From the NCBI RefSeq assembly GCF_910592395.1, contig NC_088309.1, positions 622,501-686,500 of the forward strand: a stretch of DNA of 64,000 nt, in the 5' to 3' direction. Source of the stretch: Lineus longissimus (lineage: Eukaryota > Nemertea > Pilidiophora > Heteronemertea > Lineidae). How positions within the stretch are numbered: the first letter of the stretch is position 1; every line of letters starts with the position of its first letter. Both the position numbers and the translations under genes were made by a program. Below, piece after piece: positions 61 through 63,060 of this stretch. The notes under the pieces were generated by a model. The model searched no databases. It had not been told where the DNA came from and saw only the letters and a list, made by a program, of their open reading frames with translations.

Positions 61-3000
61 TCAGCCTCTCCTTGAGCAGCCCTGTCGTGCTGTACGGAAA
101 GCTAGTCTCTCCAAGTCTCGGGTAAGAGCCATCACCAACGTGTGATCCAGCATCGTCAGACTGCCACGGTTACTGTCCAACATCTCTAGTTGACCATCAT
201 TGGCAAGGATCAAGAATTTGGCATCTCTCTCTGAAATTATGAAATGTTGAATACATGAATACCGGTACATATATCTGGTCTTACTGCTCAGCACAGAAGG
301 GGTTAATATTAACTTGTGATGATTACCAACCGTCTTTAGACACTGAAGTGGACACAGCAGGATGTGGCGCCACCTATTCCACAAGTGGAATACGCTTGCA
401 ATACGGGACAGATGACAACAAGACATGTTCTTTTACAAAGAACTGCGCACCGAACGAAGCCCTCCGACAGTACACCTGGTCAGATGGTTTGTCTCAATAG
501 GTTGGTTACCTTTCACCAGCTGCTAGGAGATCGATACAAGTGTTTGATGAGCTAAGAAGAAAGTGTATGACGTACCTGCCAGAGAAAATGCTGAGCAACT
601 GCAATTGGTGGACATTCTGTATTTGGCAAAGACGTTCATGGCCACCTTTCCAGTCTCCGGCCTCAGGTCGGTCATCACCTTGAGAGGGTAAACACTACTG
701 CTGCCCTTGTAGTTAACCTTGTATACTGAAACATGGAGATAAATCAGTTAAGAAATGACACAACTTTAGAATCCCAGCCTCCTCACACCTTAAACTGATA
801 ACTGAACAGGTGCTTAGCTCAGCGACAGTCTTTTAGATCAAACATGTACAACATTCACAAGCCATGGATAGGTAGAAACCTTTGACGAGTACATCACTGA
901 TAGTCAGCAGATAGGATGGAATGGAGGGGAACAGTACAGAATGGAAGCCAAGAGTTATAACATACCTTTGTCGTAAGTACAGAATCGAGTGACAAAGTTC
1001 TGCGGCATGGCATCAGGACACATGGGGCACCCGGGTTCCAACTGACCATTCTGCAAAGGAGAGCACATTCTTTTTGAAAAACAAGACTAACTAGGATGGG
1101 AATCCTCTGTACTGGAATGAGAAGACTGTCTGGCTAAAGTGTTCACACAAAATGCTCCTTTCTCTTCTCATTTGGTCCTACCTTAGTTGTCTCTGGTTCT
1201 GGTTGACGTGTAGAAGATGAAGGCTGTGTAGGCTCATCAGGTTCTGTCGTATCGTCATCTTTGTCTGTTGACTCTTGTGCCATGTCTGTAGGAGTTGGCG
1301 AAGTTTCCTCCTCTGTTGGCTCTGGCTTCGATGGCGTTGGCTCTGGCTCAGTTGGAGAATCGTCTTCTCCATCAACGAAGACTGAAAGAGGACTTGCTAT
1401 TTTGAAAACCGAACCAATGAGTTATACAGTGCTGACGCTATTTAGCCTGACGCTATTTAGCCTGATGCTATTTAGCCTGACGCTATTTAGCCTGATGCTA
1501 TTTAGCCTGATGCTATTTAGCCTGATGCTATTTAGCCTGATGCTATTTAGCCTGATGCTATTTAGCCTGACGCTATTTAGCCTGACGCTATTTAGCCTGA
1601 CCCAGTAAACCACCACACATAACATTGATAAAGGATTTGTTTGCTAAACTGGTGTGAAGAATACAAACAACGTACCAGTGACCTTATTCTCTTGTGCTGG
1701 TTCTGGAGGAGAATCAACATCTGGAGACACTTGGTTGTCACCTGGTTTGCCCGGTCCAGCTTGAGGCCCCATTGGTTGGATAGGCAGACGCATCTCAGTA
1801 ATCTCACCACCGTCTTCGGGAAGCACAGGATTAAAAGGAGCCTCCTCCTTTGTTCCGCAGTAGGGTCGGATCACGTAGGCGTGGAGCACAGAGTTTTCTG
1901 AAATGGATAAAGATGATGAATTAACAGGTCATCTACAAAAACCACACCGCAACGCTCACATTTACTGGATTGCTAACTATCGTGTCTGACTTCAGTAGCT
2001 CTTACCTGTTTGATAGTAATCATAGACACTGATGAGACCCGGTTTAGGCGACTCCACCTCTATATCCTGCACAAGTTCAATCAGGAAGCACTTGATTTCA
2101 CTATCAAACTGGAAAAACAACCACAACAACATAAAATATGACCATTGTAACAATATCAGCATAAACAATACAAAGATGACGAAGGTGCTCTCAATGAAGT
2201 AGCATCAAAGCCTTACCACAGTGTTATCCTAGCAATTTTATCATGCATGTGTATATTGAACGGCACAAAAGCTCTTAAGTATTAGCAAGTATTGTACTTA
2301 ATTCAGTGGTCAAAGATTTGAAGAATTTCACATTTACCTCATCAAAATATAAGTTCACCATGTTTTTCTCGACTTCAATTCTCTTGAGAAGAAGGTCAGA
2401 TCTCTGTACTTTCAACTGAAATAGACGAGCATAACACAATATGTAAACTAAAGGTTACCGTAGGCCTGTAAGCTTGGTATCCAAAGTATCCACTATATTT
2501 CAACTTTTGTTTCTGTGTGAAAAGTTTCCCAATAGAGAGCAGAACATCTGGGCAATAACTAGCCAGGGAAAGGCATAACAACTGCGTGCAAATATGTCAC
2601 TTCACAGGTTTCTAGTTTTTGATGAGTGCAGGGCGCTTACCGCTGTGACCGACTCCTTCACTGGGACCCATCCGGACACCATCTGTATCTCAACAACAGC
2701 CATGTTGGAGGCACCATCATCCAAGTTGTACCTGGAAAAAGGAGATATGATAGCGTCATAGAGCTTAGGAAAAGACATGTCCAACCGTGGACTCTGTGGA
2801 GAAGTCTCCTAAGTTGAGTTGAGGCACACCTGTCAACCACCATCACCGAAGTAACACTGAGAGAGGTTAATCAGTGGATGGGTGAAGAGAAAACATTTCC
2901 TAAAAACTTCCTTCACTGTTATGTAACTTACTTGACACAAATATCCATTAACCTCTTCCTACAGTCATCTCCTTGCTTAATCCTGATGATGTTAGCTGTG

Positions 3001-6000
3001 ACATCGAAAGCTGGCGTTGTAGGAGGTGTCACTTCAACATTGAATCGGACGTCTGCCTGAAAATGAGACAATGATGGTGCTGAACAGCCTGTCAGAAACT
3101 CCTTCTATTCCCTGAGAGATTGTCCTCTCATACTAGAGACGGGTATCTTCAGGAAGGAGTCACAATTTGAAGAAGACTGTCCTCACTCGAGCTGTCTAAG
3201 GAGAAGCTGCCACAAAGTTATATCTTCACTTTTCGTGTCTTGTCCGACTTCATTCAACAAGTGGGCAAGATGCATGAAATGTATGGGGTGAAAGTACACA
3301 GAGACAACATACAAACATGCAAGTGTTATTGTCACTTACCTGCACAAGTGCACAGCCTGTTCCACTTGCATTAATCGTCAAGTCATTGGGAACCTGGATA
3401 GGTTTCTTCTGCAGCAATAGGCTGTTGTCGTCCCTCACAGAGAATGTCTCGTCTAGGCCCTCTCCCATAATTCCAACATTTAGATTGATTCCATCACTGT
3501 AGGCGAGACTTGCATACTTGGCAAGAGCTTGAAGGGCGACCACAGTGTCCTGAAGTAGGCAAGAGGTCACTGGCTATAGTTTGTGTCATGGAAACAAATT
3601 CTTGGAAGTCAGGTCATATCATCTGTTGACAATCATAAAGAAGTAATACTGAAAGGCATTCAATCACTGACAATAGTGTGACCAGCTCTAACAAGAGCAG
3701 CACCAGTTGCTGGGAACCTGTTCTTGCTTATATTCACACCAATAAGTCTATTTACCTGAGTTGAGCTAAAACCTCCATTAGCATTTCTCTGTTTTGTCAA
3801 CCACTGGACGATGGGAATGAGAGCAGCTATGTTCGACCTCCCAGCACGGACCACGGATGCCATGAGTGCATACGCTGTCATCTCAACATCGGTTGATGCA
3901 GCTCTCTTGTACGGAGATTGCCAAAGATTATCGATAACCTTCGAAGTAACAAGTTGTGGGTTCTTTTGCCAATGGATAAATCCTGGAACGAAGAGTGGAC
4001 ATTGTGTGAGAGTAACTGTGGTAAATAGCAGAACTCTAAGATCACGATTACATGCATCAGATGAGCAATCTTTTTACTGCTCATTGCAGAAATAATTGTT
4101 GCAGCGATGAAAATGACTTGTTCTTTACGTATGGGAACCTGAAGAAATGACAACAATAATGTTACCTTGGTCATCAGTGGTGGCAGCATCTCCAAGTCTC
4201 CTCATCGCTAGACTTGTCCTTGGATCGGTCGGATCATACAGACTATAGGCATAGGCAATGAGGGCAATGGAGTAGGTATCAGTGACTGGGTTCGCCTCCA
4301 GACATTCCAGGGCAAGATGCACCGATTCAGACTGCAAGGAGAAGACCGATGGATGTCAAACACCATAACAATGTATGATACAGCTTGATAGTTCGAAGTC
4401 AACCATACATCAGCAACAGACCACATTTTCCCCACATCTTCATTTTCATTATCCAACTGCGGCATTACCAGGCCTAGCTGTCTACAGCAAATCAATTCCA
4501 TCAATGTACCGTTCAGCCATGTGGCCAGTCTCATATCTCTCCCAGATTTGGCGGTTCAATACTCACCACTTGTGTTTCCCCAGCTTCAAGCATCGCAATC
4601 AGAACGTAGGCTGAGAGTGCAGCAGATGAATCACCATCAGCCAGTCCACCTTTCATGTCTTTATGAAGAACCCTGCCAACCTGAAATCAGATTACAACCA
4701 AAATCAGGCATACAAAAAACCAGTGAAAAAAAATGTAGGCCCTTTGGTCAGGTTAGAGGGGTGAATTTGGTCATTGGGACCTCTCAATCCAGTGGTCGTG
4801 GCCTGGGTACCTGCCTGTCCGGGGTCTCATGCCGATTGGGGGATATGAACCAGGGACCTCTTGACCAGAAGCTGAGAGTCCAAGCAACTAGACCACAGGG
4901 TTAAGAATCAACTTGAGAGTTGGTATCCTACCGATAGAAAGCATCCATCATCGCCCTGCAACGATTTCAGCCACTCGACACTTTTCTTCACATCCTCATC
5001 ATCAATCGTGATATAGGGTCTGGCCTCCGAGAAGGATTTGACAACAAATGCCGTTAACCAGGTGCTGCCAGAGGGATCATTGCTTCCAAACGCACTGTAG
5101 GAGCCATCCTCATGTCGATACGTTAGTTCACGCTGATAACCTGTAATAGAGTATTGTACAGTGTTTTCAACAGTTAAAGCTTTGTGATGATGACATCCTA
5201 AGTATAAGTCAAGACCACATTAATTTCATGACGAGTCCATTTCCAAAAAGTCATGCAGACTAAATTTGTTTGACGAAGCTCTGGTGCTGCTGAAATGAAC
5301 GACAGTTTGCAGTATGGCCGGGCATCTGGCTTGCCGATCAGATCAGTACTGCTGAAATGAACGACAGTTTGCAGTATGGCCGGGCATCTGGCTTGCCGAT
5401 CAGATCAGTACTGCAGGAACCATAACTCTGATGCACTGTAAGCAAGCGACTCCACCTGGAGATAATATTGGGAACAGAATGACTTAAAGGAAGAGAAAGA
5501 TAGCACATCAGGCCCTACCTGTCATCATGAAGTTAACCGCCTTAGTCCTGATCTCAGTGGAGAGTTGGCGAGTAGCTTCCAGATACTGCATAACAAAGAT
5601 ATTGGGTGCGAAGTTCAACATGTTCTGTTCGCCACAGCCAGTAGGAAGGCGCAGAAGCTCGTCTAGACCATCCAAAGTCGGGCCCATTATGTCACCTGGA
5701 ATAATGGAGTAGCAACAATTGTAACCATAAGGCAGCTGGCAAATGTCCTTCATTCTCAATGTCCAGGTGATGATTGTTACATTCCTTCTCAGAGACAGGC
5801 GAGAGGCTGTTCGATTTAAGAAGACTTCACTTGCCACACATTCCTTGACTTAAACTTACCGATGACAGAGACGAATCCTCTAGCTGATCCATTAACGAGG
5901 GTGCTCGGGAGAGGAAGCTGGATGGTTTCTGTGAATGTCCCCTTATCGCTATCAGAAGGACACACTAGAGTACTGAATGTATACTCATCTTTGGCACCTT

Positions 6001-9000
6001 CAGGCTAAAATATTAAAGGTTTCAGGACCATGGTTATAACTAAGCTTTCCCAATGAATTGCTAAATCCACATAACTTTTGTTCGTTACACTATTTGACTA
6101 GCATTTTTAGGTCGTGTAGCTTATCTTCATGCTATTCACAGTTCAAATTTCCAATTTATTGTTGGTCCAGGTCGGTTGATGCTGAACGTATAAAGTGTGA
6201 GACATAGATCTACCTCGTTCGGTGCTCAAAGTGAACTTGATAGAATCTTGAATGGGATCTATAACTTCTACAAGGCATGTTTTTGTGTATAGTTTACAGA
6301 CATTGTTGGCTTAACAGTAAAACCAATTTCACATTACCAACCTGAACAATGAGCTGTCGCGTTACTGCGTCGCTGGCCACAAGTGTCGATAAAGGTTTGG
6401 AACCGCACACATCACTATCAGGGTTACTCTGAGCCTGCGGAAGAAAGAGATGATCATTCAAATAGTGACACTCTGACACTGCCATTTTCATTGCACCAGA
6501 ATCATGGCATTATTTGGCATGTGCCTCCATCATTCAAACAGGCCATGCAAGTTTAAGTTAGCACCACTTCTCAGAAATGGCGCTTACTCACTGTTGAAGG
6601 TGGTTCTCTTCCAAAATGAGTTGCGGAGGTTGAAAAATACAAATGCTGAAGATTACAATGTCAGCTGTAGAGGGATGGAAATACCGGCGTCCAATGAAGG
6701 GGGCCTAACGACCCCAGAGTTATTGAGTGTCCCCCCTGTGGCCTCGAGTAGCATATCTTACCATAACAGTGATGTTGACATTCGCCAAGGTCTTGGGCGT
6801 GACCTTGAACGTCACTGAGCTGGACTCATCGCCACAGACACATATCTGCTGCAGGTAATTGTCATTGGTCACATCAAAGTCTGCTGACCTTGTCAAGGTG
6901 AGATCGATCTGAAATGATTGGGAATTAGAGGATGAGTTGCTCGACATAAACCTGAAATACTCCCAGGAGATTTACACCCCCAAAAGCAGTGCGACCGCTG
7001 AAGGAGAAGAAAAAATTCCGACTGATAGTTTACATGGCTGAGACTTACCACAAGGCATTCAGACTGATAGTTTACATGGCTGAGACTTACCACAAGGCAT
7101 TCAGACTGATAGTTTACATGGCTGAGACTAACCACAAGGCATTCAGACTGATAGTTTACATGGCTGAGACTTACCACAAGGCATTCAGACTGATAGTTTA
7201 CATGGCTGAGACTTACCCCAAGGCATTCAGACTGATAGTTTACATGGCTGAGACTTACCACAAGGCATTCAGACTGATAGTTTACATGGCTGAGACTTAC
7301 CACAAGGCATTCAGACTGATAGTTTACATGGCTGAGACTTACCACAAGGCATTCAGACTGATAGTTTACATGGCTGAGACTTACCACAAGGCATTCAGAC
7401 TGGTAGTTTACATGGCTGAGACTTACCCCAAGGCATTCAGACTGATAGTTTACATGGCTGAGACTTACCCCAAGGCATTCAGACTGATAGTTTACATGGC
7501 TGAGACTTACCACAAGGCATTCAGACTGATAGTTTACATGGCTGAGACTTACCCCAAGGCATTCAGACTGATAGTTTACATGGCTGAGACTTACTACAAG
7601 GCATTCAGACTGATAGTTTACATGGCTGAGACTTACCCCAAGGCATTCAGACTGATAGTTTACATGGCTGAGACTTACCCCAAGGCATTCAGACTGATAG
7701 TTTACATGGCTGAGACTGACCACAAGGCATTCAGACTGATAGTTTACATGGCTGAGACTTACCACAAGGCATTCAGACTGATAGTTTACATGGCTGAGAC
7801 TTACCACAAGGCATTCAGACTGATAGTTTACATGGCTGAGACTTACCACAAGGCATTCAGACTGATAGTTTACATGGCTGAGACTTACCACAAGGCATTC
7901 AGACTGATAGTTTACATGGCTGAGACTTACCCCAAGGCATTCAGACTGATAGTTTACATGGCTGAGACTTACCACAAGGCATTCAGACTGATAGTTTACA
8001 TGGCTGAGACTTACCCCAAGGCATTCAGACTGATAGTTTACATGGCTGAGACTTACCACAATGCATTCAGACTGGTAGTTTACATGGCTGAGACTTACCA
8101 CAAGGCATTCAGACTGATAGTTTACATGGCTGAGACTTACCACAAGGCATTCAGACTGATAGTTTACATGGCTGAGACTTACCACAAGGCATTCAGACTG
8201 ATAGTTTACATGGCTGAGACTTACCACAAGGCATTCAGACTGATAGTTTACATGGCTGAGACTTACCACAAGGCATTCAGACTGGTAGTTTACATGGCTG
8301 AGACTTACCACAAGGCATTCAGACTGATAGTTTACATGGCTGAGACTTACCACAAGGCATTCAGACTGGTAGTTTACATGGCTGAGACTTACCACAAGGC
8401 ATTCAGACTGATAGTTTACATGGCTGAGACTAACCACAAGGCATTCAGACTGGTAGTTTACATGGCTGAGACTTACCACAAGGCATTCAGACTGATAGTT
8501 TACATGGCTGAGACTAACCACAAGGCATTCAGACTGGTAGTTTACATGGCTGAGACTTACCACAAGGCATTCAGACTGGTAGTTTACATGGCTGAGACTT
8601 ACCCCAAGGCATTCAGACTGATAGTTGAACACAGTTACAACAACTGGTACAATCTCGCCACGGATGACCGAGTAGGGCAGCGTGAATGAGGCGAAGAACG
8701 GCTGGAAAACTGTCATATAAGCAGTTGGTGCCACACCAAAGCCAGACTGCAAGTTTGTGCAGAATGCAGCACCGACCCATTGCGTGATGGTATCTGGGAC
8801 CTTCTTCGTCAGTGTCATCTCACCGCTTGAGCTACAAAATACATGCAGGTTAAAATGATCATGATACAACCGTTGGATGGGTAGGCCTAATCAGCTGCAG
8901 TTGATATGGAACAACTTCTCAGAGCTTCTAGCTTATGATATCATTTCACATTATCCCTGCATCTTTAAGATTGATTGTGATGTTGTATTCAATTGTAGGG

Positions 9001-12000
9001 CCTGTTTTGAAACTTATGGTTCACAGCGTCACCAGCTGCAGACAATAGGACATATTCTTACCCGGTTGTTTCTAAATCCCAAAGCCAGGTTTCTGGGAAA
9101 TATCTGCGGACTGTTTTTGCTTTGGTGGACGTGCCTTCTTCCTCTTCAATGTCAGCATCAACAGCTTGTTCTGGTTCGACGACCGCAGACTCAAGAACTG
9201 AAAGATATTCCATAGGATTACGCTTATCAAAAATGAGGATATCTTTATCAGCATGTTATTCATGCATGGTACATTTCAATCCGTTTTACAGACACACCAG
9301 TTAGCAAGATGCCCTCTCTATATAGACACTGGTTTGAATGACATTCTGGTCATCCTCGCATACCACAGTCAATCGTATGGTCATCCCCTCACACATGTTA
9401 CATAAGCTTTAGTGCCGAGTGTTGGCCTGAGGTTCAGGCTGCATTCTGGTCCGACCAATCAGTTTGACTGCGTGATCAAGGTGCTTATCTATTACGTTTA
9501 GTATAGTCAATGATTAGATAAGTTCGTCTCTGATATCATCAACAAACTGGGTAAGTGGTACATGCAGATAAGGTGACAAACCACCCTGGGTAAGTGGTAC
9601 ATGCAGATAAGGCGACAAACCACCCTGGGTAAGTGGTACATGCAGATAAGGTGACAAACCACCCTGGGTAAGTGGTACATGCAGATAAGGTGACAAACCA
9701 CCCTGGGTGAGTGGTACATGCAGATAAGGTGACAAACCACCCTGGGTGAGTGGTACATGCAGATAAGGTGACAAACCACCCTGGGTAAGTGGTACATGCA
9801 GATAAGGTGACAAACCACCCTGGGTAAGTGGTACATGCAGATAAGGTGACAAACCACCCTGGGTAAGTGGTACATGCAGATAAGGTGACAAACCACCCTG
9901 GGTAAGTGGTACATGCAGATAAGGTGACAAACCACCCTGGGTAAGTGGTACATGCAGATAAGGTGACAAACCACCCTGGGTAAGTGGTACATGCAGATAA
10001 GATGACAAACCACCCTGGGTAAGTGGTACATGCAGATAAGGTGACAAACCACCCTGGGTAAGTGGTACATGCAGATAAGGTGACAAACCACCCTGGGTAA
10101 GTGGTACATGCAGATAAGGTGACAAACCACCCTGGGTAAGTGGTACATGCAGATAAGGTGACAAACCACCCTGGGTAAGTGGTACATGCAGATAAGGTGA
10201 CAAACCACCCTCACCTGGCACTGCGGGATATCTACCTCGGTAATCATAATCCGGACTCTCGCAAGGCCTTGTATCCACTTTAAGATCTGTCATGTAGATG
10301 AGACCAGTGTTCTGTAAAAGCATGTTTGATAGGTTTTATGAGTGCTGTATGGAAACAGGAGATAACATAGAGAGATTATGCTTGGATATTAGGTCTGCTT
10401 TAGCGAATGGATAGGCCCATTATCATTGGTGTTATATAGTGCTTGGTTGTTGTTGTTACAGAATGTTCAGAGGCCTTGAAAACATAACAGACTGCAAAGA
10501 TATATTTAGTTGTTCCTCCGACTTACCTTGAATGCAGTAGACGAGTCCACAAATCTTGAACTTGCACTTGGCCAGTAAATGTCGCGTTTCTTACGTTTGA
10601 ATGGCTGTACTTCCATATCGACATCCCATGGGTTTGTCACTGGACCAACCTCTGCAAGAAACACATTGACCATCAAAATGAGCTGCAAGCCAAAAGCCAA
10701 CATTTTTTGGGGGCTGATGATGTTTCTTCATGACAAGTAAAAAAAATATTTGGAAAATTTTTTCATCTGTAGCATGAAAAATTTTCCACAATCAATTTCT
10801 TAACAGAAATCATGGCAGCATTCGTCTTTTCACAGCAATTAGGCCCTTTGGTCGGGTAAGAGGGGTGAATTTGGTCATTTGGACCACCCAATCCAGTGGA
10901 TGTGGTCTTGGTACCGCCGGTGTGGCCGACCGGGGTTCCACTGTATACCGTGCGAGTTAAAACCCACTCTGGATGCAGGTACATACGTTTTTCACAGTAT
11001 TCATCTCTATAGCTGTAACCATCTGGCTCCACATCAAAGGCAGCCAGAGCTCCAAACACCTGAAATAACAACAATCCATGAAATATTTCACAATGTAAAC
11101 TGCCGTCGCTAGTTCGATAGTAAAATCCTTCACTGAGTCAATCCCATCTAAAGTTGCTAAAGTGCTCATTTTCAAAAAGAGGGGCCTAAATTCAAAGCAG
11201 GTCTGCCAGTTAGATGGCTGGCTTCCCCAAATCACAGTTGATTCTGGCTGGAAGGAATCCATTCTGTGGCTACCTTTCCATTGCTAACTTTGATCATTGC
11301 AAATTGAGGTAAATCCACAAATATAAACCTCTGGAAAGATCTGGTGGTTTACAGTAAGAGTTTAAGGAAAGTGTTGCTACCTTGGCTGGATTAAGCTGAT
11401 TACTCTTATCCAGGAGATGAACACTCTTATCAACAACACCGATGTTACATAAAGAATCAGGATCCGCACGCATCTTGATATTTGCATCATCACCTGGACG
11501 GTAGAATTCCTTTTCAAAAGCGAGGTCAACCTGAAACAAATTGAAATGGTGAGAGCCTGCGACAAGGACGTTGAGTGTTTTTCAGATAGATCTGGTTGAC
11601 CTGCTGTCTGTAGACTGTATTAGTCTGATCACATATAGTAATGTTACACAGCCCTGGACAGCTGGTGTCCTAGTTGACTGGCTTTTCAGCATTGGTTAGG
11701 CCTACCCTAAGGATAATCTAGTGTTGTGCAACACCACTTTCTTTCGGTAAATGTGATCTGGCAACATTCCTGAGTTCAACTAAGTAACTTTGGCCAGAAC
11801 GATATGAAAACACTTCATGAGATAGGCTACTGAGAGGCTGCTACTGAACATCGACCCCCGAGGGAATCACGTGATGCCGAAGATCATTTAACAAGGACCT
11901 GTTGATGGAAAAGTTCTAAATAACACATCAAACTTGACATTTTGAACATTTACAATGAGGCCATACCTTGTTGGCGAAGCATTCCTTGACGTTCAACTGG

Positions 12001-15000
12001 AGAGTATCAGCAACAGTCTCGCCGTCATCTCTGATGTAGTAGACGAGAACGCGGGCTAACGGCGCCATCTCTGGCAGTATCCTGATCGGGATGGTAAACG
12101 TATCGATAAACTTAGGTGGAGTTACCGCGGGAAGTGGAGTTGTCGTAGGGGGTAACCTCTTTTTCGGTATAAGGAGCGGAACATCTTCTATCTCCTTCTT
12201 ATCATCTGTCAAATGATGAATGTTTCATTGAGATTTAAGAACATTTGACAACTTGTTACAGAAACATGTTGGCAGAGCACTTACAAGATTGATTAGTAGC
12301 AGCTCGGTCCAGTTTCAGTAAGAAAACATGAGGCCTAAGTGCACCAAAACAGATTTTGCAGAACGTTCGTAGAACCTCTTAAGTGACGTAACTGATGGGA
12401 CAAGTCCTGATTATTGACACCATTTCTGGGCAAAAATCTGAAATAGATATTGCTGTGCAACAAGTGTACTCATCCTTCAAGGGATTTCCCTCGACAAGAG
12501 GTAAAGACATGCTGCAGTTTGAGCCTTACCTCTAGGGCTGAGTGGACCTGCTTCGTCATCACTGTCATCATCGTCTTCATCATCCACAGCCCGTTTACGT
12601 CTTCCTGAGAACAGATCCCAGAGCGACTTTGTTTTCTTCCTGAAGTCACGTACCTGCATCCCCTGGCTTATGATAGCGCCACGGGCCATGACCTGAAAAT
12701 ATCAACACATGGTCATGGAAACTTGCGTGAGACTAATAGTCAAAGCAGAAACGTGCCACATTCACATCTTTTATGCCATTTCTCTTGATGTTGTTATGCT
12801 TCGACTTTGACTGACGATGACGATGATGGTACACATGACCAGGTTGGTTTTGAGCAAAAGCATTGCTGCAAGTGCAAACTACAAAATGTTTTCTTTCAAC
12901 AAGACAGACTGTGGGAACTTGAGTGGGTGATGATCAGTAAAACAACAGGCATGCTGAGTGAGAGATGAGGTCGATGTTTACCTCAAAATGGAATGTGGTT
13001 CTTGAGGGAGAATCCGTCAAATACTGAATGCCGACTTGGTATTCTGTGCCACAATCCACCTTCTCGTCAACAGCTTCGTTAGTGACCTGCATGCCGCTGC
13101 CTGACGGTGAGTACCACTGCTTCACTTGCAGATTGGTGCGAGTTGTCAACATCTTGTAGCAGTCGTTACAGCCGTCTTTCATCTTCTCAGGAGATGATGC
13201 CTTCAATGTAAAGAATGAAAAGAATCAGTCAGAAAAATATCAGGAATATGGAGTAGTTAGCAGTAGTTGATAGTCGTGAGAGAACCAGAATCACATTGGT
13301 TTGAAAACGGGACTCGTCATCTACTTTACTGAAGAGAACAAACAGATCGATCTCTATACTCACATAGATACTGAATTCTCGGACCTCCCTTTTCATCGGT
13401 GGGAAAGTATAGACGAAAAAGCCTTCATCATCACTCCTGACAAATCGTTTGTATTGAATATCTGGACGGTAGGATGTGACTTCCACTTTGATGTTGACAC
13501 CTGCCGCTGGTCGACCGTCAGGGTAGGTCACTAAACCCTGCAAATAGAAGTTCATAATTTAAGGCATTTCCTTTAACAATAAGTCGCAATTCGACTCGTC
13601 AAGTCACAAGGCTGGTGCGATGCAATGAGATCAAGCAGCAAGAATAGCCAGTCATGGGAAAATGTATAACAAGCATGATTCTGTGACTTATTGTAACTTG
13701 CACCAGAGTAATTGAGCTTAATGTGACATTCAGTGGAAAAACCACCGAAGCTGACATGACCTGTAGTGTCTTTAGTGTTTTGACAAAATGAATTGCCAGG
13801 ACAGGAGACCACGAAGCAAGTTGATTGCATCATCAGCCAGTAAATGATTACCGTACCTTGGTTTTCAATGGAAGTTCTGGTTTGAAATATTTATCTGTGT
13901 AAGAGATGATGTCGATTTCGTAGCGTTGGCGATATATTTTGCTTGATCCATTGCCCTTGAGCATGATACCGGTGGCCTCCTCTGTGACAATAGCATCAAA
14001 GAATATACTCGCGTCCCAGATTGGGAAGCGATTGGATTTCAGACGCAGTTCTGTCCCATTGATGGTCAGTTTGCCACAACCATTGATCTGTAACAAATGG
14101 ACATATTAAACTCGCTAGCGAGGAGCCTAATAACCCAGCAGTTGATACTGCTGGCTAACATGCAATTGGGTTCGGGTTCAATCCAGGGAGGAATACCCTC
14201 ACCATGATATGCCACAGGTTGAGAAGTCTCATAGACATGTTAGAGATTTATTAGACAAATGAGGGATCATCAAAGAAGACGCATTGCTTTTTCGAAACCA
14301 ACATCACAATTTATCCAGGTTGGGAGTGCACCGTATGGTTCAATGACTGGCACTGACAGATCACTTCAGACCTTGGGTGAGGGACTTTACTCTGACTGCC
14401 ATACTCGTACCATGAAAGACGTAAAACAGAGATTCCTTGAACCTAGTGTTTGTGCCATAGAGGCGAACACAGGACCCTATTCCAAATAGAATAAGTACTC
14501 ACATCAAGTCTAGAGAGGAGGATCGGACGAGGTCTACCGTAACTATAGCCTGTTGTCTTAGCCTGGGTCACAACTTCAGCAACTCCCTTCACAGGTTTAC
14601 CATATGTATACCTAAAAAGCAAAACAAACTGTAGTGGAATGCAAGGGAGGCAGGTGGTAGAAGGTTAGACATGGTAGAGGAGAGTGGGGTAGAAGGTTAG
14701 ACATGGTAGAGGAGAGTGGGGTAGAAGGTTAGACATGGTAGAGGAGAGTGGGGTAGAAGGTTAGACATGGTAGAGGAGAGTGGGGTAGAAGGTTAGACAT
14801 GCTAGAGGAGAGTGGGGTAGAAGGTTAGACATGGTAGAGGAGAGTGGGGTAGAAGGTTAGACATGGTAGAGGAGAGTGGGGTAGAAGGTTAGACATGGTA
14901 GAGGAGAGTGGGGTAGAAGCATAGACATGGTAGAGGAGAGTGGGGTAGAAGCTTAGACATGGTAGAGGAGAGTGGGGTAGAAGGTTAGACATGGTAGAGG

Positions 15001-18000
15001 AATATGAGTTAGAGACTTACTTGGCACATATTTCCACATCGATGACATCATCATTGATGTAGACAAATTGAGGAGACTTGACTGTCACTTCATACTTGGG
15101 GAGAACTGGCAAAGAGAACAAAGTTCAAGAATCACGAAGATTTCCTGATTGAAATACATGTACTGGTACAGTGGGACCCCGGTAACACGACCACTCATGG
15201 GACCGAGAATTTTTTTCATCTTTCAGAGTTGAATTTTTTCATAGAGGTTGGTCGCCGCCCGGGGTTCCACTGTACACCAATGATTGGACCCAGAGCAACA
15301 TGGGGAATCATATTTATGATGGATGAATGTTCTTAGAAACTGACAAGCACCTTTCACTATGCTAATTAGATGGATGACATTTAATCTAACTACAGGGTTA
15401 TCAAAACCACCTTGAACGTTATCGCAAAGTTTAGCATTCATGTTTTAAATTCACTAGTCGGACGTTAAGGATCATTCCACCAAATTGATAACACCTATTA
15501 AGACGATAAAGAAAATCGATGAAATATTTCATGATAGAATGTGTACCCACCATATTCCTCCACCTTAAACACCTGCTCAGTTGCTTCCATGTCTTCTTTC
15601 AGTTGAACCGTGATCTTCCAATTGCCCAGCACAGGTTCTTTAGAGAGGGGCAGCTTGAAGGAGGCCAGGCCTGGAATCACACCACAGATCAACTTGACAT
15701 TATGTTACTTGCCCTTGAGTCAAACACAAATTCATATTTCTCCTAATGTATATATACTACAATTAAAAAGTGATCTCATACATATTTTAATCAGTGCTAT
15801 GTGTTAAAGTCACAAGCTGTACCCAATTAGCAAACTGACTTTGGTAAGTATACAAATGATAGAGGATGTAGTTGAATCTTACCTTTCTCTGTTTTGATGT
15901 TTTTCCATTGTATTATCCTAGTGCCTTTAGCATCCTGGATATACACTGCAGAAATCTGCAAACAGCAAAGACATTTGTGATATCGGAATTCAATTCATTA
16001 TAACAGATACAACAGAGACCAGGGACAGCACCATCTAAGTCACATTTAAACAGATACAAGAGACCAGGAACAGCACCATCTAAGTCACATCTAGACAGAT
16101 ACAACAGAGACCAGGGACAGCACCATCTAAGTCACAACTAGACAGATACAACAGAGACCAGGGACAGCACCATCTGAGTCACACCTAGACAGATACAACA
16201 GAGACCAGGGACAGCACCATCTGAGTCACACCTAGACAGATACAACAGAGACCAGGGACAGCACCATCTAAGTCACATCTAGACAGATACAACAGAGACC
16301 AGGGACAGCACCATCTGAGTCACACCTAGACAGATACAACAGAGACCAGGGACAGCACCATCTAAGTCACAACTAGACCAGGGACAGCACCATCTAAGTT
16401 ACATCTAGACAGGATTCTCGCCACTTGATGCAGAGTGACAAGAGACCAGGGACAGCACCATCTAAGTCACATCTAAACAGGATTCTCGCCTCTTGATGCA
16501 GAGTGACAAGATCCAAGAGTACTAGTAGCTACTAGTCATGAATCTGTTCTCTGGTGACCAAGATAGAATTTCTATTGAAAGTTACGGGAATCATAAACAA
16601 ACTCACCATCTGGTCCATTGGAGTGAGATCTGGACTGAGACTGAGAACCCTAAACTGCACTGAAACAATGAGACAAATTTTATTCAATAATCATATTATT
16701 AGGCTTGTGGGGCAAAACTTTTTACCAGACCGAAAGCAATGACTTAAACCCAAATAAAGAAGTTTCTTTACTATAAGAAAGTTTCTTTACAGTATTGCAA
16801 GGAAGGTTTGACTTTATTGTAATGAAAACCTTAGTATACCTCCCAGCTTCAAGTTCAAGGATACCACATCACATATATGGACCTACTTATGTCGAGATAC
16901 TTGTAGATAAAACTGCCTTACCTAGCTGTCCCGGTTTGTACATCGGTTTATCAGTCTGGACAAACGTCAGAAGAGGATTCTGGGTGCGAACCTGGACCCA
17001 TTTACGATTTTCAAACATGTAGTCACCAGCTTCTCCTCTGATAGATAGTTGTATGAGTTTGCCGGCCAGATTGCTGGGCACATCATGCTCCACACATGCC
17101 CCTTCACCTGATTGAGAAAAAAATCATGGGATTGGTAAATATTGAGTGTGCTTCAACCTTGAGACTCATCCTTAGTGCTATTAATGGTCATCAGTAGGTC
17201 ACAAAAGTAGCTGAGCTCAAACTTGCATAAGCTAGTTACTCCCTTAGCTCTAATGATCTTTAAGGAGGTTAGTAGGTGGCAAACCTGCTCCATCTACTCA
17301 CCATTAGGGAAGTCATGAACCATGGAGTTGATAGTACTGTTGTCCTTCTCTAGAAATTCCATTGCCACGGTAACAGTGGTATCTAAATCAGTGAATGTCA
17401 AGCACATGTTGGCCATTCCACCAGCCTTTAATTCTCGCGGGAACGTCAGAATATAGCCTCTGAAATACACAGCAATCAAAATATATCACAGAGATACATT
17501 ATATAATAATACTTTATATAATATAACTTATATAATATTATCACAGAAATCAACAGCCAGCACTGAAGAGTAGGCCTTGGACTGGCCCAGGTCTGACTAG
17601 ACCCGGCTTTGTCAGTCGGTCCAGACCTGTTCTACCATAATTTGACTGGGGGTCAAGTTTCTCCCAGGCCTTCCACCAGGGAGCAATGGTGTCACCACTA
17701 GAGAAACAACCCTGAAAGAAATGAAAAATACCCGCAATTTGTACTTGAGAGAAACAAACAATGGTGTGGTGCTGAAAAATAAACTAAGACAATCTGCCTG
17801 CATCTTTAACAAGTAGGTGATACAAAATATGATGCATTTTTCTTTCTTGACTTGCTGTATGGCATGTATAGGTATTTCTTATACGAATAAACTGATGAAT
17901 TCCTACTGCATTTTTTTTTTTAAAGACGTTCTTGCAAATACAGGTCAAGATACCGAGTCAGGTCTTGGCCAGAGTTAAGCCAACCCTCAGAGAGCTATCA

Positions 18001-18858
18001 TTTCATCTTCTGTATGAACAAGACCTATTTGGCCTTTTTAGAGTCAAAAACAGACCACTTTAGTAAGTGAGCCTTTAGTTGTTCTTGGAACACTTGGGTA
18101 AACTTTCATTTCCTTGTCTCATGTGACGTGTCTGTGAGTGTGACATTGTCAATGTCAAATTGTAATAATAATAATATATCAATGTTGGCAAATTAATATG
18201 ACCTCCACTAGAAATGACATAAGGTATTACAATAAAGTAATTTCAAGTTCGCATATAAATCACATCAAATTGTTTGAAGTAGTTAATATTCAAAATTAAA
18301 TGGAATATGTAATACCCCAATACATAGACTACGACCCCGTGTTCATACACATGAATCCACTTTTTGGACAATAATGGTATAACCTCCCTATTAAGGACAC
18401 CTCTACATTACGGACACCATCGCCCAGTCCCATGGGTGTCCGCAATAGAGAGCTTGTACTGTATAAGAAGGCGTGGAAACATTCTCATTCATATATGGGC
18501 CTATTACACAGTTCTAAATGTGTGAAAGTAATGAAAGTAGATTCTTCTAGAATGTAGGCCTACCCAGCGCAGTTACGATCTGCACCGCAGTTCATAAGTT
18601 AGGAAGGATTTGTGGTCTATGACTGGTCTCGCTTGCCATGCATTGTCCCTGGCATCGTTACAAGCGACACTGTGGTCTTAGAGTGGTTACTCCATTAAGA
18701 CCTACTTCAAGAACCACCGACACAGCATCGACCGTCAGTGTCAGGCCAAGGGCCTAAAACGTCACGATTAAGCTAACACGAGGTAGAGTCACTTACTTTC
18801 TGGCTGTGGCACACCCACTAAACGCTACCAAAGCCGCGAGTAGCAGGAACCTCGACAT
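61..18858 (-). CDS. thioester-containing alpha-2-macroglobulin/C3-like protein with C-terminal NTR domain
   Basis: Secreted innate-immunity or protease-trapping protein, about 1,797 aa from 37 exons. Exons, 5' to 3': 18797-18858, 17302-17459, 16922-17107, 16607-16659, 15883-15955, 15551-15670, 15021-15105, 14503-14611, 13857-14087, 13364-13537, 12982-13200, 12530-12692, 11967-12205, 11381-11530, 10987-11059, 10527-10651, 10215-10311, 9062-9197, 8603-8831, 6762-6908, 6342-6434, 5860-6004, 5519-5695, 4932-5140, 4567-4680, 4166-4331, 3756-3982, 3340-3549, 2932-3056, 2641-2731, 2338-2415, 2006-2108, 1676-1897, 1182-1381, 966-1050, 576-725, 61-230. All phases agree. Order: signal peptide (1-20), macroglobulin domains (TDKPMYKPGQ; IGVVDKSVHLLDK), polybasic RRKR 521-524 and KRKKR 717-721, FPETWLWDL, thioester GCGEQ 1042-1046, catalytic-type His1157 in LHKDMKGG, receptor-binding domain ending VYDYYQT, Pro/Thr/Glu-rich linker, NTR domain (about 1664-1797). 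No anaphylatoxin cysteine cluster is seen. The body is closest to A2M, while His and NTR recall C3; CPAMD8- or C3-like assignment stays open. Confidence 0.93.
1434..1601. repeat. 15-bp minisatellite, about 11 copies
   Basis: Tandem copies of gacgctatttagcct, with a C/T variant at one position. It sits in the intron between exons 33 and 34 of the thioester gene. The 15-bp period keeps frames open on both strands, which produces spurious peptides such as LFSLM repeats; no splice site supports coding. Confidence 0.95.
4735..4899 (-). mobile_element. tRNA-derived SINE
   Basis: On the minus strand the 5' end carries an RNA polymerase III A-box-like TGGTCTAGTTG and, about 45 nt on, a B-box-like GGTTCATATCC. 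A non-tRNA body follows, containing CCACTGGATT and ACCAAATTCACCCCTC, and then a T-rich tail. The same body recurs at 10846-10946, so this is a repeat family and not a tRNA gene. It lies in the intron between exons 24 and 25 of the thioester gene. Confidence 0.7.
5287..5411. repeat. 62-bp direct duplication
   Basis: Two near-identical adjacent copies of a 62-bp segment (for example tgaaatgaacgacagtttgc at 5291 and 5353). They lie in the intron between exons 23 and 24 of the thioester gene, next to the thioester exon. The near identity suggests a recent tandem duplication. Confidence 0.9.
7031..8626 (-). repeat. 38 tandem copies of a 42-bp exon-intron junction (5' splice-site array)
   Basis: Exactly 38 units of 42 bp. 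Read on the minus strand, each unit holds 24 nt equal to the 3' end of exon 19 (NYQSECLG or NYQSECLV) followed by 18 nt of intron starting GTAAGT. The donor is GTAAGT in 34 units, GTTAGT in three and GTCAGT in one. Exon 20 begins at 6908 in phase 0, and every donor is also phase 0, so each could join to exon 20 in frame. Each additional unit included would add 14 residues (VSLSHV plus NYQSECLV). A truncated 39th copy precedes a pyrimidine-rich tract at about 7001-7018. The opposite strand also reads open, but only because the period is a multiple of three. Confidence 0.95.
9547..10211. repeat. 39-bp minisatellite, 17 copies
   Basis: Unit ctgggtaagtggtacatgca plus 19 further bases, repeated 17 times with very few differences. 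On the minus strand it begins only a few nucleotides inside the intron after exon 17 (donor GTGAGG at 10214). The period of 13 codons leaves two minus frames open (246 and 269 codons). Unlike the 42-bp array, the exon 17 donor itself is not copied, and exon 17 to exon 18 phase (1) is satisfied by the GTGAGG donor, so I treat the array as intronic. Confidence 0.93.
10846..10946 (-). mobile_element. SINE-body fragment fused to a terminal-repeat sequence
   Basis: The minus strand shares the SINE body found at 4735-4899 (CCACTGGATT, ACCAAATTCACCCCTC, ACCAAAGGGCCTA). It lacks the tRNA-like head; in its place is TACAGTGGAACCCCGG, which is the terminus of the inverted-repeat element at 15167-15274. 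It lies in the intron between exons 15 and 16 of the thioester gene. Confidence 0.65.
14128..14210 (+). mobile_element. possible tRNA-derived SINE fragment
   Basis: A B-box-like GGTTCAATCC at about 14178 follows a tRNA-like stretch (cagcagttgatactgctggc). The A box is poorly preserved and no second copy was seen in the window, so the call is tentative. It is intronic to the thioester gene. Confidence 0.35.
14657..15001. repeat. 32-bp minisatellite, about 11 copies
   Basis: Unit gtagaaggttagacatggta plus gaggagagtggg, nearly invariant. It ends about 15 nt from the exon 7 donor (15020) of the thioester gene and fills most of that intron. Confidence 0.94.
15167..15274. mobile_element. about 108-bp terminal-inverted-repeat element (MITE-like)
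   Basis: The ends tacagtgggaccccgg and ccggggttccactgta are inverted copies of each other with one mismatch, around a short A/T-rich core with no coding capacity. Related termini occur at 10930-10945 and 27247-27262. It lies in the intron between exons 6 and 7 of the thioester gene. Confidence 0.6.
16002..16480. repeat. 47-bp minisatellite, about 10 copies with deleted units
   Basis: Core unit cagatacaacagagaccagg followed by gacagcaccatctaagtcac and a few more bases. The central units are full length; those after about 16370 are shortened and carry an inserted gattctcgcc segment. It lies in the intron between exons 4 and 5 of the thioester gene. Confidence 0.9.
18379..18463. mobile_element. 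short inverted-repeat element (MITE-like)
   Basis: Starts tataacctccctattaaggac and ends, as inverted complement, with gtgtccgcaatagagagctt then gtactgtata. The termini match those of the longer element at 21843-22024, so both belong to one family. It lies in intron 1 of the thioester gene. Confidence 0.6.
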
Positions 18859-46904: not shown

Positions 46905-47490
46905 ATCACTGAAGACTGGTTGTGACAACCCCTTCATATTGTCAGACAGGCTGTGATAGGCAGTGTAGGACACCAGTGGCAACTGGTTGTGACAACCCCT
47001 TCATATTGTCAGACAGGCTGTGATAGGCAGTGCAGGACACATGTGAAGACTGGTTGTGACAACCCCTTCATATTGTCAGACAGGCTGTGATAGGCAGTGT
47101 AGGACACCAGTGAAGACTGGTTGTGACAACCCCTCCATATTGTCAGACAGGCTGTGACAGGCAGTGTAGTACTAGGACACCAGTGAAGACTGGTTGTGAC
47201 AACCCCTTCATATTGTCAGACAGGCTGTGATAGGCAGTGCAGGACACATGTGAAGACTGGTTGTGACAACCCCTTCATATTGTCAGACATGCTGTGATAG
47301 GCAGTGTAGGACACCAGTGAAGACTGGTTGTGACAACCCCTTCGTATTGTCAGACAGGCTGCGATAGGCAGTGTAGGACACCAGTGAAGACTGGTTGTGA
47401 CAACCCCTTCGTATTGTCAGACAGGCTGCGATAGGCAGTGCAGGACACATGTGAAGACTGGTTGTGACATCCCCTTCGCATTGTCAAATA
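46905..47490. repeat. about 67-bp tandem repeat, 8-9 copies
   Basis: Unit gaagactggttgtgacaacc followed by ccttcatattgtcagacagg and ctgtgataggcagtgtagga plus caccagt. Units vary from about 65 to 72 bp. Diverged half-copies precede it at about 46700-46880 (gtgacatccctctttatatt), showing older decay at the left edge. It lies between the 3' ends of TCHP and RANBP1. Confidence 0.92.
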
Positions 47491-60959: not shown

Positions 60960-63060
60960 CACTATCCTGTTGCCAATACATGAAAGATGAGAAAGTCACA
61001 ACCAGATCAAATTGCGCCTGGCTGCTCTGGCGTGTTGCCCTTGTGGTAGGAATGGCAAGACAATCACAACCTGACCAAATTTTGCCTGGCTACTCCATGG
61101 TGAGCGAGTTGAGACAGTCGCTACCTGACCTAAATCGGACCTAACTGCTCCACTATGCTGGCATGGTAAGAGAGACGAGACAGTCATAACCTGGCCTAAT
61201 CGGACCTCACAGCTCCACCGTGTAGCCATCATGGTGAGCGAGACGAGACAGTCACTACCTGACCTAAATCGGACCTAACTGCTCCACTATGCTGGTAGCA
61301 TGGTAAGAGAGACGAGACAGTCATAACCTGGCCTAATCGGACCTCACAGCTCCACCGTGTAGCCATCATGGTGAGTGAGATGAGACAGTCACAACCTGGC
61401 CTAATCGGACTTGACTGCTCCACCGTGTAGCCATCATGGTGAGAGATGGGACAGTCACAACCTGGCCTGTTCGGACTTGACTGCTCCACTGTGTAGCCAT
61501 CATGGTGAGAGACGAGACAGTCACAACCTGACCAAATTTGGCCTGGCTACTCCATGGTGAGCGAGTTGAGACAGTCACTACCTGACCTAAATCGGACCTA
61601 ACTGCTCCACTGTGATGGTGGCATGGTAAGAGAGACGAGACAGTCATAACCTGGCATAATCGGACCTCGCAGCTCGACCAGGTTGACAGCACGGTGAGGG
61701 AGAATAGATCATGAGGTAGTCACAACCTGACCAAATTCAGCCTGGCTGCTCCACCACCGTGTTGCCAACAAGGTGAGGGACACGGGAATTCACAACCAGG
61801 CTGAAACGGGCTGGGCTGCTCCACGCTAAGGGAGATGAGAGACTCACAGCCAGATCGAATCGGATCTGGCTGCTGCAAAATGTTGACTGCATGGTGAGCG
61901 AGATGAGACAGTCACAACCTGGCCTGTTCGGACTTGACTGCTCCACCGTGTAGCCATCATGGTGAAAGAGATGAGACAGTCACAACCTGGCCTATTCGGA
62001 CGTGACTGCTCCACCGTGTAGCCATCATGGTGAGCGAGATGAAACAGTCACAACCTGGCCTAATCGGACGTGACTGCTCCACCGTGTGGCCATCATGGTG
62101 AGGGAGGTGAGACAGTCACAACCAGGCCTGTTCGGACTTGACTGCTCCACCGTGCAGCCATCATGGTGAGCGAGATGAGACAGTCACAACCTGGCCTAAT
62201 CGGACGTGACTGCTCCACCGTTGTAGCCATCATGGTGAGAGATGAGACAGACACAGCTTGACATATTCTTGCTGGGCTGCTCAAACGTGTCGCCAACATG
62301 GTGAGAGAGATGAGACAGTCACAGCTCGACATATTCTTGCTGGGTTGCTCTACTGTGTCGCCAACATGGTGAGGGAGATGAGATAATGACAACCTGGGTG
62401 CTCCACTGGCTCGGCAACAGTGTGAGAGATAAGACAATCGCAACCAGATCAAATCGGGCCTGGCTCACAGCCGTGTTGCCAACATGATGCGATGGGAGAG
62501 AAAGTTATGACCACACTGAATCGAGCCTTACTGCTTCACCGTTCTGACAACATGATAAGAGAGTTAAGGGCTGCTGCCTCATTCTGACAACTCGGTGAGG
62601 GTGATAAGACAGGTACAACCAGACCGCATCAGGCCTGACTGCTCAACTTTGTTGCCAACGTGGGTGAGTTGGGAGACGAGACAACCACAGCAACACCAAA
62701 TGGGGCCCAGCTACACCATCATGTTGGCAACATGATGAGATAGTCGCAACGAGACCTTATTGGCCTGGCTGTGTCACCGTCCTGCCACCACGGGGCGAGA
62801 GGTGTGACATCCGGGACCTCAGGCAGACCGCATTTGGCTGGACTGCGCCATCGTTTTGACAACACGGTGATGAAGATAGGACACCCGTAATCAGACTGAA
62901 TCGGGCTTGGCTTCTACTGTTTTTAGATTACAAGGAGAGGGATGAGACACCCTTACACAGTCCGAATCGAGTCTAGCTTCGGCACCGTGTTGCCAAAACA
63001 CGTAGGCCTACACGGCATGGACCGAATCGGGGTTTGCCTGTCTATGTCAAAAGAGAGTTG
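60960..63060. repeat. degenerate satellite with about 68-bp unit and dimeric higher-order repeat
   Basis: Unit of roughly 68 bp built on gagacagtcacaacctggcc, taatcggacttgactgctcc and accgtgtagccatcatggtg. Units are best preserved at about 61090-62400 and decay to both sides. From about 61105 to 61380 two unit types alternate (…ctacctgacctaaatcggac and …cataacctggcctaatcgga), giving a period near 135 bp. Minus-strand open frames of 60-119 codons here are by-products of the repeat. Confidence 0.9.

Follow-up and report, generated by a model that had tools for sequence, protein, structure and literature searches.

Tandem copies of an exon-intron boundary with 38 splice donors in an alpha-2-macroglobulin-like gene of the nemertean Lineus longissimus

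The host gene and the structure of the array

The 64,000-nt stretch of Lineus longissimus (Nemertea) DNA analysed here, hereafter the window, carries on its minus strand a gene whose product (P0001) is named alpha-2-macroglobulin-like by NCBI and matches the queried region with 100% identity (Table 1). When P0001 was mapped onto the window, 1789 of its 1790 residues were placed in 37 segments, which put the end of exon 19 at 8603 and the start of exon 20 at 6908. This mapping replaced our first gene model, which contained three phase mismatches (small exons had been missed) and a different exon 17 donor; the two agree at the exon 19/20 junction. A Pfam search with the two halves of the first gene model detected PF00207 (E = 2.8e-25), PF07678 (4.5e-87) and PF07703 (9.5e-29), as well as the MG domains MG2 (3e-10), MG3 (1e-5) and MG4 (1.1e-6). 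The product thus has the MG, bait-region, A2M and thioester domains (the last with GCGEQ) that characterize the alpha-2-macroglobulin family, and P0001 itself contains GCGEQ, which we take to be the thioester motif of this family. The gene shares its domains (Pfam A2M, bait-region, MG2-4 and thioester) with other alpha-2-macroglobulins and thioester proteins, and its coding sequence is ordinary at the exon 19/20 junction; only the intron is unusual. A search for paralogues with the peptide encoded by these two exons found four further places in the genome (E up to 7e-4), and at two of them, both on C11, the match continues uninterrupted across the junction, with no intron.

Table 1. Features of the macroglobulin-like gene (window positions) and arrays on exons of three other Lineus genes
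Feature	Position	Strand	Description
Alpha-2-macroglobulin-like gene, whole	64..18858	-	37 coding segments, 1790-aa protein
Exon 19 (SSGEMTL...VFNYQSECLG)	8603..8831	-	P0001 residues 812-887; last 24 nt = exonic half of unit 1
First 5' splice site, GGG|GTAAGT	8597..8602	-	phase 0; donor yielding the annotated protein
Intron 19, as annotated	6909..8602	-	1694 nt, ~94% of it array
Minisatellite, 38 x 42 nt	7031..8626	-	unit of 24 nt exon-like + 18 nt intron-like sequence, one donor each
Last (38th) intact donor copy, GTG|GTAAGT	7043..7048	-	last exon-like base 7049
Exon 20 (IDLTLTRSADF...VNITVM)	6762..6908	-	phase 0 acceptor CATTTCAG before 6908
DNA-PKcs exon array			period 44, 6 units; Pfam E = 1.4e-12
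UROD exon array			period 49, 5 donors; Pfam E = 1.7e-15
CCDC93 exon array			units 40/42; Pfam E = 3.1e-39

Tandem Repeats Finder (TRF) identified a single array in this intron (7015-8626; period 42, 38.4 copies, 97% matches, no indels), and an in-register alignment resolved it into 38 full units (7031-8626) followed by a broken 39th, in which homology ends after approximately 16 nt. Each unit joins 24 nt from the end of exon 19 to 18 nt from the start of intron 19. The GT dinucleotide is kept in all 38 donors, and the donor hexamer is GTAAGT in 34 units, GTTAGT in three and GTCAGT in one. On these points the initial annotation was exact: it had described 38 tandem donors with the same hexamer counts and had recognized the unit as the exon 19/intron 19 junction itself, the numbering of the intron being that derived from the annotated protein. 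Variation among the units is confined to five of the 42 positions (6, 19, 23, 24 and 27). At position 6, T and C alternate across units 3-10, which suggests that duplication may recently have proceeded in two-unit steps. Exact matches to a 23-nt word of the unit number 34 in the 391-Mb genome, and every one of them lies inside this array.

Tandem arrays are often mis-assembled, and the true array might be far shorter in the animal. We consider this extremely unlikely, because distinct variants are unevenly placed among the units, the 1.6-kb array fits inside one long read, and similar arrays are present at other loci.

Donor choice and the annotated protein

The donor after 8603 and the acceptor before 6908 are both in phase 0, and, in the frame of the gene, each of the 38 units is free of stops and encodes NYQSEC(L/I)(V/G)VSLSHV. 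Since the period is divisible by three, every donor of the array has the phase of the acceptor, as had been pointed out from the sequence. On this basis, the initial annotation proposed that choice among the 38 donors would set the length of the protein, with 0 to 37 extra repeats of 14 residues inserted in the MG7-type region; the stated maximum of 518 residues (37 x 14) is arithmetically correct. However, the frame compatibility that suggested this idea, although real, was overemphasized. When hypothetical units of 20-60 nt straddling the 22 donors of the first gene model were simulated, 6947 of 28,864 (24%) had a length that is a multiple of three and were free of stops, and among those of period 42 the stop-free fraction reached 71% (532 of 748). 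With approximately a quarter of such units behaving in this way, no selection is needed to account for the open frame of the array.

The annotated protein points to the first donor. The P0001 sequence VFNYQSECLGIDLTLTRS corresponds to 8603 joined directly to 6908 and contains no repeat, and its record carries no "isoform X" label. This join aligns without a gap to the solved alpha-2-macroglobulin 7voo, presumably the human protein. Among the best 120 of 4285 matches, P0001 counted, the spacing between FNY and the strand that follows the junction shows zero length difference in 116 proteins; of the other four, one has a difference of +9, two are unaligned at the junction and one is not aligned at all. 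None of the proteins measured in this set deviates in length at the junction by a multiple of 14. The corresponding sequence of P0006 from Tubulanus polymorphus, which we assume to be another nemertean, reads FNYLTQCLVIDLTL. A search with the repeat peptide gave no match at E 0.001 among 1609 candidates of the eligible lengths of 672-2138 aa, a range that leaves products with more than 24 inserts outside the search. Taken together, the annotated protein and the conserved spacing fit regular splicing through the first donor, which is therefore likely to be the usual course.

These results leave the proposed length variation without support, and we regard it as very improbable. In its favour are the common phase of the donors, the period and the stop-free units; against it are the repeat-free P0001 without an isoform label, the constant length at the insertion point in 116 of the 120 proteins described above, the repeat peptide unmatched within the searched length range, and the cysteine that each 14-residue insert would add to the protein. 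The pattern of variation among the units speaks on both sides. Four of the six distinct changes are synonymous in the frame of the gene, against 21% expected (P = 0.019, uncorrected, for the best of six frames), which agrees with coding use of the units; the two sister arrays tested as controls did not show such a bias. The synonymous excess is thus a weak hint of coding constraint. There is perhaps a slim chance that later donors are used rarely or in a limited set of tissues. If so, the gene would produce a ladder of macroglobulins carrying 0-37 one-cysteine repeats of 14 residues by the thioester domain, and the ladder would vary between animals with the length of the minisatellite. The peptide VSLSHVNYQSECLV would mark the use of later donors. 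Short reads map poorly in tandem arrays such as the 42-nt one, which tempers the weight of the junction annotated in P0001.

Another role that could be imagined for the 37 extra donors leaves the protein unchanged: by binding U1 snRNP, they might slow or buffer the splicing of intron 19 or prevent premature polyadenylation. In favour of this, GTAAGT is kept in 33 of them, and 32 have a donor score of at least 9.5 bits. However, the donor bases have not been preserved preferentially: they are more variable than the remainder of the unit. Three of the five variable sites fall inside the 9-nt donor, which occupies 9 of the 42 positions (P = 0.057), and the +3 donor base is changed in 4 of the 38 units. 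GTAAGT arrays are also not enriched in the genome (1100 matches of the pattern versus 1729 of its reversed control). A regulatory function of this type is accordingly very unlikely.

The reading that we prefer is the one the initial annotation had kept as a fallback, namely use of the first donor with the decoys retained in the intron, and it holds in the light of the annotated protein and the conserved spacing. A 42-base segment spanning the boundary has been repeated 38 times, and splicing probably proceeds from the first copy only, which would leave the other 37 donors as intronic decoys. Replication slippage or unequal exchange may have expanded a segment that merely happened to span the boundary. 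The first donor would then win through exon definition, with exonic enhancers located upstream, because it alone adjoins the real exon and because the splicing machinery would have difficulty recognizing an exon hundreds of bases longer. In model substrates with duplicated identical donors, the donor nearer the acceptor is often preferred. Such a preference would predict use of the last donor in the Lineus array, which makes the array a real test of donor choice. If the first donor is indeed the one used, the locus would represent a natural experiment in which splicing must find one donor among 38 nearly identical consensus copies spaced at 42 nt, and it would offer a strong case, open to testing, that donor choice follows exon-side rules.

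Sister arrays and comparison with known boundary duplications

Scanning the Lineus genome for at least three CAG|GTRAGT words at a spacing of 20-49 yielded 45 places, which represent all places of this pattern and belong to 10 arrays. As judged by inspection, the first unit holds the end of an exon in five of these arrays, and the other five show no exon. Three of the five exon-anchored arrays gave Pfam matches above the cut-off and lie on exons of DNA-PKcs, UROD and CCDC93 (Table 1). When the first donor of the UROD array is joined to the next exon, 101 of 101 residues align without a gap to the solved UROD 1r3r, which we take to be human; because the period is 49, donors 2, 3 and 5 would shift the frame. 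For the remaining two, at C2:164640 and C11:18785790 (periods 41 and 40), the exon assignment consists of an open frame and an acceptor, accompanied in the former by a weak ANAPC2 match below the Pfam cut-off and in the latter by no Pfam match. In the C11:18785790 region (L060), the array has 40-nt units with CAG|GTAAGT or CAG|GTAAGC, is preceded by a short exon-like stretch, SIIQSLCDPEIVLITGENMGILEQ, and reaches the end of the 3-kb locus.

We also inspected eight GTAAGT regions, which were picked by eye, non-randomly, from the first listed places; four were read base by base, three of them containing an exon, and four were analysed by TRF alone. One array, L041 (G000:C1:28645200-28655100, 4569-5215, minus strand; period 45, 14.4 copies), lies downstream of an open exon. 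In most of its units, a microexon-like stretch of 18 nt is flanked by an acceptor-like CTTTCTGTCTGCTCAG and by the donor AAG|GTAAGT, and most units contain an in-frame TAG. Its motifs resemble those of a cadherin gene, but Pfam gave no match above the cut-off.

Among the seven exon-anchored arrays, the macroglobulin array included, only the macroglobulin array is wholly in frame and stop-free, against 1.7 expected at 24%. The sister arrays are thus mostly frame-breaking or stop-bearing. Frame compatibility, which is expected in approximately one in four such units anyway, is therefore absent from most arrays of this type, a further argument against a length-setting role in the macroglobulin gene. 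Some donor-bearing arrays do sit on real exon ends. Their over-representation in the genome is not shown, because the reversed controls yield as many matches or more: in addition to the GTAAGT pattern mentioned above, CAGGTRAGT arrays gave 45 places versus 66 in the reversed control. AAGGTRAGT arrays gave 18 versus 1, but these 18 places represent only three arrays, one of which is L041. Genome-wide enrichment was accordingly discarded as a claim for the GTAAGT and CAGGTRAGT patterns.

Arrays of this kind are not unprecedented. According to two reports on amphioxus, tandem duplications of exon-intron boundaries, termed mirages, are found in Adh3, troponin C, the globin genes BflGb6 and BflGb9, and PGBD5; AG/GT signals are present in many, but not all, of the repeats, regular splicing is reported to be undisturbed, the copy number varies (haplotypes of BflGb6 have six and three units), and mirages may seed new introns (PMC3087553, PMC3902484). 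The Lineus array resembles them as a minisatellite-like duplication whose unit spans an exon end and an intron start and many of whose units keep the splice signals. The differences concern the lineage and the scale: the mirages belong to cephalochordates, which is their known range rather than part of their definition, and BflGb6 has six or three units, whereas the Lineus array is found in a nemertean and repeats its 42-nt unit 38 times, without a frame shift or a stop in any copy.

Other systems are less close. In human genes within segmental duplications, internal tandem repeats at exon-intron boundaries affect splicing and can create introns; these are likewise boundary minisatellites, but they differ between recent paralogues and RNA demonstrates both retention and splicing-out, whereas the Lineus array is a single locus described here from DNA (PMC2812944). 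The CeRep25B minisatellite of C. elegans lies near alternatively spliced regions and is statistically linked to splicing decisions, but, according to the abstract, it consists of intronic motifs, whereas the Lineus repeat duplicates an exon-intron boundary (PMC4039745). A further minisatellite holds a transcription start, and the accessible parts of that report describe no boundary duplication (PMC3039753).

Rather than setting protein length, the Lineus array is probably a nemertean mirage, a striking example of a class of splice-site repeats already described in amphioxus. The kind itself is known; what is new is the nemertean lineage, the copy number and the presence of similar arrays at the donors of DNA-PKcs, UROD and CCDC93. 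In the open-licence literature searched, no report of boundary-spanning minisatellites in nemerteans was found. The array is ordinary as a kind, remarkable in its size and host, and a testbed for donor choice. The occurrence of such arrays at four donors in a ribbon worm (DNA-PKcs, UROD, CCDC93 and the macroglobulin) suggests that boundary-spanning minisatellites are not a peculiarity of amphioxus, and their recurrence in a second, distant animal lineage is a lead worth following. The expansion of minisatellites at splice sites would then be a repeated source of raw material for changes in introns among distantly related animals.

Other minisatellites in the window

Whether the arrays of the gene cluster around splice sites was evaluated with five arrays, the two-copy array at 5287-5414 being left out. 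Each of the five has a splice site within 50 nt, versus 3.6 of five by random placement (P = 0.15), so that this distance is uninformative; with the limit set at 0 or 10 nt, a single array of the five qualifies, below random placement (~3).

The second minisatellite of the macroglobulin gene (17 x 39 nt, 9547-10211, minus strand) starts approximately 25 nt inside intron 17 and has GTAAGT words of its own on the opposite strand. Besides the annotated donor of this intron, after 10236 (GAG|GTAGAT), a rival in the same frame lies 21 nt downstream (CAG|GTGAGG, after 10215; 11.1 bits), and use of the rival (10215-10236, minus strand) would add GRYPAVP to the protein. A 15-nt unit that ends in CAG is repeated 11 times at 1432-1601 (minus strand). 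The acceptor before 1381 follows approximately 50 nt downstream of this array, which may provide decoy acceptors. Another intron, flanked by the exons at 15106-15020 and 14610-14503, is largely filled by a pyrimidine-rich 32-nt unit in approximately 11 copies (14656-15001, minus strand), an array that ends approximately 45 nt before the acceptor. Elsewhere in the window, long minisatellites with periods of 67 and 68 and with higher-order repeats are present at 46910-47486 and 61058-62397.
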